From Campylobacterales bacterium (GTDB lineage: Bacteria > Campylobacterota > Campylobacteria > Campylobacterales > JALSKU01), in NCBI GenBank assembly GCA_026988685.1, contig JALSKU010000217.1:1-32451 (forward strand): DNA of 32,451 nt, in the 5' to 3' direction. The notes beneath the pieces were generated by a model. The model searched no databases and was not told the origin of the DNA. It saw only the letters and a program-made list of their open reading frames with translations. The first letter of the stretch is position 1, and each line of letters opens with the position of its first letter. Positions 28,851 through 31,886 of the stretch are shown here, in pieces. Made by a program: the position numbers and the translations under genes.

Positions 28851-30938
28851 TCAGTTACCAACCTCTTTTTTAATCTTTGAAACAATCTCATTCAAATCTT
28901 TTGAATATGCAAAACAGACATCTACTTTACAAGCGAGATACTCTTTTGTTTGAACAACTTTATAAAGGATAAAAGGATAAAAGTTTTCTAACATATTTTT
29001 TGCCGGTAGCAGGGCATCTTTTTTAGCCTTCAGTATAATATATCCCTTATCAAATGCAACCTTGTCTATAACTGCTTGAGGGAAATTAGCTGGATATCTA
29101 GTGATAATCGGCAAGCTTTTATTGAGTGTTTGATTTGAGAGATCATGATAGCTAAGATCCTCTTCAATAAGTGCCAATTTTTCCAGGTTTTCCACCATTA
29201 TACCAAGAGAGCTAACATAAGCATTTCCCTCAAAACTTGCTTTTACTTTAAATGGTTCTATAGAACTATACCAACTCCCATCAACATAAAACTCCTCTAT
29301 AGCTTTTTTAAGTAGTTTATTGGCAAGTTTGAGGTAACTTTTATCAAAGCTATTTTCATAGGCGTCTATAAGAGCAGATATAACAAATGAGTAATCCTCC
29401 AAATTTGCCTTAACCTTTACCTTTTTACCCGGTAATTTTTGATGGTACAACTCTCCATCAACATATAGCTCATCTATGAGTTTATCCAATGATTCTGTCG
29501 CTACTTTCATAAACCTTTTTTCAATTTTTCCGGCTTTTAAAAATGCTTTTATGGTTAGAGCATTCCAAGATGTTAAAATCTTTTGGTCAACAAACGGGTA
29601 CGCCCTCTCCTCTCTTAGTTTTAAAAGTATCTCTTTTGCTTTTTTAAGGTTATCAGGTTTTTTAACATCCTCTTCTATATATGGATTGTTTTTTCCTTCA
29701 AAATTACCATCTTCTGTTATACTAAAATACTCAAGTATATCTTTACTGTTTTTGACACCCTCTTCATCAAGCGCTTTTTTAGCTTCGCTATATGTATAGA
29801 CAAAATATGCGCCCTCCTCTTTTTTACCACTTTTTTTATCAAAGCTATCTGCATCACTTGCGCTAAAAAAAAGCCCTTTATATCCAAATCTTTTTTGTAT
29901 AAAGTCTCCTAGGTCATTTACCACATTTTTATATGATTCGTTCTTTGTTATCTCATATGCTAAGGCATAATCCTCAAGAAGCTCGGCATTGGTATAGAGC
30001 ATTTTTTCAAAGTGAGGTATCATCCATCTCTCATCAGTGGAGTATCTAAAAAATCCGCTCTCGATTTGGTCATAGATCCCGCCTTTGCTCATAGCAGTTA
30101 GCATTTCATCTGCCATTTTTAATGCTTGTTTATTGCCATTTAATTGGTAAACTATAAGCAAAGCCTTGATGGTAGAAGCATGTGGAAATTTCGGCGCAAC
30201 ACCTATACCAAAATTTTCATTGTCATAATTTTTCAATACCCCCTTGACAAATTTTTCAGCCAAATCTTTGCTCTCTAGAGCTTTAAAATTGCTACTATTT
30301 TTTCTCTCTTCATATATCTGGAGGTATTTATCTACATCCTTCGAAGCATCAACTATCTTTTTATAGTTTTTGTTTTTTAACTTTGCGAAATATTTTAGCA
30401 TCTCCAAAAGGCCGGGCCTACCATACTTAGACTCTTTTGGAAGATAAGTCGCACTAAAAAAAGGTTTGCCATCAGGAGTTAAGATGATTGTGAGCGGCCA
30501 ACCTCCGCCTCTTTGGTTTATCACATAAAAAACATCCTGAAAATGTTTATCGACTGAGGGCATCTCCTCTCGGTCTACTTTTATAGCTATATAGTTATCA
30601 TTTAAAACCTTGGCTACCTCTTCATCCTCAAAAGATTCTCGCTCCATTACATGGCACCAGTGACAAGTACTGTAGCCTATAGATAAAAATATCAACTTAT
30701 TCTCTTTTTTTGCAAGCTCAAAAGCCTTTTTGTTCCATGCATGCCAATGCACAGGGTTGTGAGCATGCTGTAAAAGATAAGGAGAATCCTCGTTTATCAA
30801 CTCATTTGTATATTTATCTGACCATGCATGATTTGACGAAGCCGCTTCTGCCTCTACCGATGTATGGTCAGTTTTATATGTTTTTGCTTGCATAATTACT
30901 ATCACCCCCACCATTAAAATTATAATCTTTTTGATCAT
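28851..30938 (-). CDS. DUF255 / thioredoxin-domain protein (YyaL-like) with N-terminal signal sequence
   Basis: [25 protein letters not shown] motif, [55 protein letters not shown]-terminus [22 protein letters not shown]. Confidence 0.93.
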
Positions 30939-31060
30939 TTTGCATCCTTCATCACTGGATAACAGATAGTACCGTAAGATATTTAATGCACAATTTTTTC
31001 ACAATTTTAATGTAAAGTTTTAAAGTTAAAACTGATGTTACACACTTTTCATCAGCTAAG

Positions 31061-31250
31061 AGCATTTTGCCTTACGGGCGGTAAGAAAATGTTAAAAGGA
31101 GAACCGTTAAGAAAAAGCAAACTGCTTTGCTTTTTTAGGTTCGCACGACAAATCCATGTGCAAACTTGCACGGATTTATGTCAAGAAAAACGCAAGCGCC
31201 CTTGGGCTAAAGTGTGATTTTCTTAACACATTTTCTTACCTCAAAATGCT
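31061..31250. other. Compound nested palindrome element
   Basis: AGCATTTTG (31061-31069)/CAAAATGCT (31242-31250); GGTAAGAAAATGT (31080-31092)/ACATTTTCTTACC (31228-31240); GTTAAGAAAA (31106-31115)/TTTTCTTAAC (31218-31227); plus internal hairpins. Confidence 0.85.
31111..31136. terminator. Terminator-like hairpin inside the palindrome element
   Basis: AAAAAGCAAA (31112-31121) - CTGC - TTTGCTTTTT (31126-31135), A- and T-tracts on both sides (bidirectional form). Confidence 0.5.
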
Positions 31251-31267
31251 ACGCATCTTCAAAGTTG

Positions 31268-31273
31268 TATAAT
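31268..31273 (+). promoter_or_regulatory. Putative -10 box of the flavin reductase-like gene
   Basis: TATAAT 20 bp upstream of ATG 31293, in GTATAATATC. Confidence 0.4.
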
Positions 31274-31292
31274 ATCAGTCAAAAGGAAAGTT

Positions 31293-31886
31293 ATGTTAGT
31301 GGATTATTCTAAAATTGAAGCGAAAGATAAATATAAACTTATGAGTGGAGGGATCATACCAAGGCCGATTGCCTGGATAGTAACGGAAAATGAAAAAGGG
31401 ATTATCAATGTAGCACCCTTTAGCTATTTTACCGGACTCTCATCCAATCCACCTACTCTTATCGTCTCTATCGGGCACAAAAGTAACGGCGAACCAAAAG
31501 ATACTCTTAAAAATATCAGAGATAGCAAAAAGTGCACCCTTTGCTTAGCAAAAGAGGAGCAGTTAGAGCCTATGCACTTTAGTTCCAAGGAACTTGAGAG
31601 TGATATAAGTGAGGCTACGCATTTTAATATAGCCACAAAAAAGATACTTGAGGATTTTCCACCTATCATAAGCGGGGTTCCACTAGCATTTTTTTGCACT
31701 CTATATAAAGAGATAGAGTTAGGTGGAAGCAAAACTATACCTCTTATACTTAAGATAAAAAGTGAGTATATTAATGATAGTGCTATCGATAAAGATTTAA
31801 GAACGGATTTCAGTGCCATTGCTAGACTAGGAGGAGAGTATACATTTTTATCCTCCAAGATAACTCCACCAAAGATAGAGGACTAA
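31293..31886 (+). CDS. Flavin reductase-like (FMN-binding split barrel) family protein
   Basis: [43 protein letters not shown]...[18 protein letters not shown]. Confidence 0.9.

Follow-up and report, generated by a model that had tools for sequence, protein, structure and literature searches.

The large palindrome near the right end of the window (the whole stretch of DNA analyzed, 32,451 nucleotides) represents one of the copies of a small transposon, non-coding and dispersed in its own bacterial genome. We give a probability of roughly 0.85 to the reading that it is a MITE whose core is found order-wide and is common to MITEs of different ends. Copies of the element have defined ends and many of them carry target duplications, while its core covaries across the order and lies beneath different ends. 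The element has ends of the IS701 type, and the transposase that goes with them (transpos_IS701_2) would most likely have moved it in trans to AT-rich sites between genes, where insertion duplicates 7 bp of the target. The sequence-only reading had offered a MITE or an undescribed structured element, and each description holds in part, because the palindrome is a MITE with a conserved, structured interior that has no Rfam match.

Position, extent and fold of the element

The element, a long form of the MITE, occupies 31032–31278 on the plus strand (247 bp), as delimited by a covariance-model match (1–162) to contig C217 of its own genome (G000). It sits between genes at 28851–30938 (minus strand) and 31293–31886 (plus strand), contains no ORF of 80 or more amino acids and, being short and without coding capacity, has the makeup of a bacterial MITE. 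Although the palindrome noticed earlier at 31061–31250 is real, those limits were too narrow: an outer stem (31032–31047/31262–31278) had been overlooked, and it marks the true ends. The left terminal inverted repeat, CTGATGTTACACACTT (31032–31047, plus strand), exactly matches the pattern CTGATRTTACRCACTT and is also found at the ends of IS701-type ISs, and the right one, AAGTTGTATAATATCAG (31262–31278, minus strand), has drifted slightly and forms the outer stem with the left arm when the element is folded. These repeats of 16–17 bp, CTGATGTTACACACTT and its complement, lie outside the earlier limits, and the ends are accordingly CTGATGTTACRCAC rather than the AGCATTTTG supposed earlier.

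Inside the terminal repeats, all three stems that had been described were found in place. The second stem pairs AGCATTTTG (31061–31069) with CAAAATGCT (31242–31250) in the sequence; its left arm adjoins an unpaired CATCAGCTAAG kept within the own genome, and its right arm is followed by a conserved unpaired ACGCATCTTC. The main stem, seen in both sequence and fold, joins GGTAAGAAAATGT (31080–31092) to ACATTTTCTTACC (31228–31240), and the third stem is AAGAAAA/TTTTCTT (31183–31189/31218–31224). The two internal hairpins were likewise present, namely, AAAAAGCAAA-CTGC-TTTGCTTTTTT (31112–31136; sequence and fold), which resembles an intrinsic terminator on both strands, and a stepped hairpin, GACAAATCC..GTGCAAACTTGCAC..GGATTTATGTC (31147–31182), seen in the fold. 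The apical module ACGCAAGCGCCCTTGGGCTAAAGTGTGA (31190–31217, plus strand) is the best-conserved part in a sequence comparison among genera. The window palindrome folds far beyond chance, with z scores of −7.1 (plus strand) and −7.0 (minus strand) as RNA and −6.3 as DNA, and 0 of 200 shuffles folded as well.

Alignment with 13 short copies showed that the long form carries a 92-nt insertion (31098–31189, plus strand) in place of ATCACAA (7 nt) of the short form, which brings in two hairpins and a new arm. The "extra insert" TAAAAGGAGAACC of the sequence-only reading is present, but it is only the beginning of this insertion. A unit 78% identical to the insertion adjoins tRNA-Leu on contig C109 of the own genome, so the insertion was probably derived from another repeat. 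Relatives of it (AACCGTTAARAAAA-hairpin-TTTTTAGGTT) were also seen at L023:1498–1640 and G000:C131:94–129, one of them between tRNA-Leu and tRNA-Gly, and make up a further repeat family.

Copies, terminal repeats and target duplications

The earlier guess of a mobile element, for which a multicopy check had been suggested, was borne out by a search of the own genome (a MAG assembly of 1.98 Mb in 232 contigs): there are 15 full-length copies, 13 of them short (161–165 bp, about 163) and two long (the window copy and one on C30, 97% identical to it), together with fragments. In two copies, L017 (C47) and L007 (C190), the terminal repeats have drifted at 6–7 of about 16 positions and the arms still match near-perfectly (19/19 in L007).

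Among the copies with IS701-like ends in the own genome and its relatives, a 7-bp AT-rich target duplication at offset 0 was exact in 19 of 50 and had at most one mismatch in 29 of 50; other offsets and lengths fared worse, except for a 5-bp sub-window within it. The duplications that had been proposed as a check thus exist for the family, but the window copy, flanked by GTTAAAA and TCAAAAG, does not have an exact one, and from these flanks its duplication is judged to be decayed or lost. A comparison with an empty site in relatives, also proposed earlier, found no orthologous empty site because the gene order differs: the gene read as panC lies immediately ahead of the flavin reductase gene in G001, G002, G003, G004, and G007, leaving no gap orthologous to that in the window.

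The terminal repeats, CTGA(TG/CC)TTACRCAC, also flank other MITEs of 109, 117, and 265 bp in the own genome and in G002, G003, G004, and G006. In the own genome, the outer 16 bp, CTGATRTTACRCACTT, bound two other sizes of palindromic element (265 and 109 bp), and in related genomes, elements of about 117 and 265 bp are bounded by CTGACCTTACGCAC. The MITE of about 265 bp (L057–L061, L073, L076, L077, and L080–L084; G000, G002, G003, G004, and G006) has a second core, with two long hairpins and a recurrent internal loop like GACTTCGTTAGA/TCTGCCTCGCAT; this loop motif stays constant while the stems vary between species. A third MITE type, likewise bounded by these ends (CTCGAAAAGTCCTACTTTTCG ... 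GAGCTTTGCTCATTATAGTGCG) and about 117 bp long, occurs in several copies in G002 and G003 (L072, L074, L075, L078, L079, and L091).

A probable IS701-type partner

The ends and the 7-bp duplication of the MITE also belong to two complete ISs carried by plasmids of Polaromonas (NZ_MG869620 and NC_008757); these ISs are 1099 and 1102 bp long, have the ends CTGACCTTACGCAG and CTGATGTTACGCAG, are flanked by the 7-bp duplications TTACTAA and TATTTAA, and encode IS701-type transposases that score 376 and 365 bits against NF049921 (transpos_IS701_2; cut-off 250). The window element has in common with these ISs the terminal repeat CTGA(CC/TG)TTACGCA and the AT-rich duplication of 7 bp, whereas it is gene-free and measures 247 bp against about 1100. 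On contig C80 of the own genome, the contig edge falls 96 bp into an IS with the terminal repeat CTGAAGTTACGCAC and the start MKTEYLELYTDYLIASFG; the query used to trace it included eight residues added as those expected in the protein family, and the conclusion rests on the Polaromonas comparison. The complete genome G046 has 37 model matches and a broken IS701_2 gene ending in TGCGTAACGTCAG. The ends that a MITE has in common with an autonomous IS were therefore found on the Polaromonas ISs, on the C80 fragment, and on the broken G046 copy; a Stanieria IS and a Moraxella IS have related ends on reading of the sequence.

An intact IS701_2 transposase was absent from the genomes of the genus examined, where the MAG assembly may have collapsed one, and a PF13546 search for a transposase in the genus was also negative. 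Matches to PF01609 were rejected as the partner transposase because they belong to other ISs (ISAs1-like at C193 and IS5_4 at C210). These two are intact in the own genome: the former (L087:25–1320) is ISAs1-like by reading, and the latter (L092) is IS5_4 with the ends TTGAACCCTCTGAAAAA.

IS701 proper has 4-bp duplications and ends of the form ---YACT-Y--YR and encodes a transposase (PMC2266710), whereas the element has 7-bp duplications, CTGA ends, and no transposase gene. Since both the duplications and the ends of IS701 proper are different, we regard the partner IS as a separate branch under that name, to which only the NCBIfam name IS701_2 applies.

An order-wide core beneath different ends

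A covariance model (R1) built from the 13 short copies matched 50 of 400 genomes of the order, representing 18 of 87 genera, and the matches were mostly full-length and often multicopy. Among well-finished genomes of the phylum, 16 of 398 were matched, all of them listed in the same order. Gene content, including a relative of FliY, suggests that the hosts belong to the Campylobacterota. When the matches were read as sequence, an apical string, (GTGC)AAACGCAAGCGCCCTTCGGGTTGAGT(GCAC), framed by CTAAAAA and TTTTTTTAACG, recurred across genera. In a related genome, the apical hairpin lies at a contig end and is followed by another CGTTAAAAAA-framed hairpin (L032:1–140; G001:C106).

In 102 aligned matches, 93.0% of 5319 cells were paired and 50 of 55 pairs showed double-sided changes, giving a covariation score of 0.642 compared with 0.162 for shuffled and at most 0.107 for slid alignments; these figures are not probabilities, as the alignment was fitted to the model structure and the copies are related rather than independent. 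Compensatory change is heavy in every stem of the core. In a consensus over 28 genomes, the mean majority was 0.85 at apical unpaired positions, 0.74 in the inner stems, and 0.50 in the outer stems, which are thus the least conserved. Three A-T pairs at the apex were invariant in 100 of 100 sequences, and most other pairs varied through several types. No Rfam family matched the element or its core. The core was not found in plasmids or phages, and exact patterns were absent from GTDB contigs and viral contigs. Integron attC was considered and dropped, as the R box pair was unfit by eye.

Three kinds of ends were found on the conserved core: IS701-like, IS5-like, and a GGNACTGACTAAAT-type, the last on weaker grounds. 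IS701-like ends occur in G000 and G046, and in drifted form in G161 and G044. The IS5-like ends, (TTGAnnC)TCTGAAAAA, occur in G080, G097, and G104 and match the TTGAACCCTCTGAAAAA that bounds the intact IS5_4 element on C210 of G000; copies with these ends showed no target duplication. The GGNACTGACTAAAT ends, which we take to resemble an IS1595-type end, occur in G025, G039, G068, and G102, with 8-bp duplications that are exact in 3 of 18 and have at most one mismatch in 6 of 18. The core is therefore common to MITEs whose ends are of two kinds at the least and probably of three, and its presence beneath different ends argues for a module that has had a history of its own, rather than being just a deletion remnant of one IS. 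A conserved core under exchanged ends is unusual; a MITE core common to unrelated ends is absent from Rfam and from the open-access literature found. We see about even odds that the branched module is a transferable part, used by MITEs belonging to three or more unrelated kinds of transposase, and that as a domesticated or parasitic hairpin it provides insulation, protein capture, or an advantage in replication that depends on no single transposase.

Proposed function and maintenance of the core

The core would be a structural insert. Its apex, in the order A-tract, stem, small hairpins, stem, and T-tract, would stop transcription arriving from either side, and such termination would make intergenic insertions tolerable. 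A terminator-like apex, made up of an A-tract, one arm of a stem of 4 bp or more, a loop region, the second arm, and a T-tract, and thus readable on either strand, was found in 82 of 97 copies but in only 1 of 1940 shuffled sequences. Both long copies fail this test, and only their inserted hairpin AAAAAGCAAA-CTGC-TTTGCTTTTTT is terminator-like. By simple ORF calling, 52 copies lie between tandem genes, 20 between divergent genes, and 15 between convergent genes, with four inside ORFs that are themselves probably spurious; the absence of enrichment between convergent genes offers nothing to suggest a special role at such pairs. The 82 terminator-like apices and the invariant A-T pairs favor a two-way terminator or insulator, an assignment that we put forward tentatively, at somewhat under even odds, and a terminator alone does not account for the conserved apical loops.

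Conservation of these loops and covariation in every variable helix are what would be expected if the core were a functional non-coding RNA, regulatory or processed, that is spread by MITEs and whose pairing is selected in the transcript. A relative in kind, the Coxiella QMITE2, does yield sRNAs (PMC10969869, PMC5896051). Selection for RNA on the plus strand would, however, raise G-U over A-C, and with the sequences oriented by the conserved apex we counted 59 G-U against 86 A-C, with tRNA acceptor stems being too few to use as a wobble control. Because there is no G-U excess, the pairing looks to be kept at the DNA level or by template-switch upkeep. Together with the lack of an Rfam match, the lack of a promoter called within the element, and the report that template switching can make palindromes covary (PMC8794818), this leaves the RNA reading improbable, at about one chance in four by our estimate. 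The same covariation, Watson–Crick in style and without strand preference, suits a DNA hairpin or cruciform bound by a host or phage protein of replication, recombination, or hairpin processing, from which transposons benefit, as do the branched apex with its two mini-hairpins and the recurrence of the core beneath different ends. No such protein was identified, and the copies in G046 showed no clear strand bias by inspection irrespective of the replication origin; we rate this reading as unlikely, though a little less so than that of an RNA.

An ordinary IS-derived MITE with a functionless interior, in which covariation comes from template-switch repair and likeness between genera from transfer, would account for the mobility through its ends and target duplications, and its stems could be maintained by template switching (PMC8794818). 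Against it, the apical loops and the A-tract/T-tract are fixed, including the three invariant A-T pairs, despite wide divergence of the stems, and the outer stems are less conserved than the inner ones (0.50 versus 0.74), whereas recent transfer would preserve both; we consider it about as improbable as an RNA. REP/BIME-like palindromes, spread on single strands by an IS200-type (RAYT) transposase, would also be palindromic, intergenic, and multicopy. They are, however, palindromes of 20–40 bp that go with a RAYT (Y1) transposase, which the size and ends of the element do not fit, and its IS-type terminal repeats and 7-bp target duplications make this origin very improbable; the REP-like guess made earlier thus gives way to an IS-type MITE. 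For the MITE with a conserved core that we prefer, perfect pairing would be a DNA-level property, maintained by selection, by repair of the palindrome through template switching, or by both.

Possible effect on the neighboring gene

The earlier placement of the element, ahead of the −10 of the gene that follows, is not quite right: the hexamer TATAAT (31268–31273, plus strand), which may serve the flavin reductase gene as its −10, falls within the right terminal repeat, 19 bp before the start codon (ATG at 31293). This hexamer arose in the drifted repeat, and no consensus promoter was called by a promoter scan there or within the element. Because the flavin reductase gene has no direct upstream neighbor here, unlike in relatives, the element may supply its −10.

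Comparison with known systems

MITEs are usually taken as leftovers of a single IS. That the core is recognizable in at least 18 genera despite exchanged ends suggests that something in the interior benefits the element or its host. Telling selection from template-switch repair is a long-standing difficulty in interpreting covariation, and this multicopy natural series, with its many compensatory changes, could separate selection on structure from such repair; it also cautions that covariation by itself is no proof of RNA.

The Coxiella QMITE2 and other bacterial MITEs are, like the element, non-coding, with terminal repeats and a strongly folding core, and have duplications of 7–9 bp and cores of 113–145 bp; what was read of these reports, however, describes neither order-wide covariation nor a core that recurs in other genera beneath terminal repeats of unrelated kinds (PMC10969869, PMC5896051). 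SPRITE, RUP, and BOX of Streptococcus pneumoniae (named in PMC10969869) are also small mobile repeats with a terminator-like or structured interior, but they differ from the element in sequence, host phylum, and ends. Palindromes maintained by template switching resemble it in having perfect stems that are renewed via double changes (PMC8794818); template switching is, however, a mutation mechanism and not an element, and in the MITE core described here the loops are conserved too.
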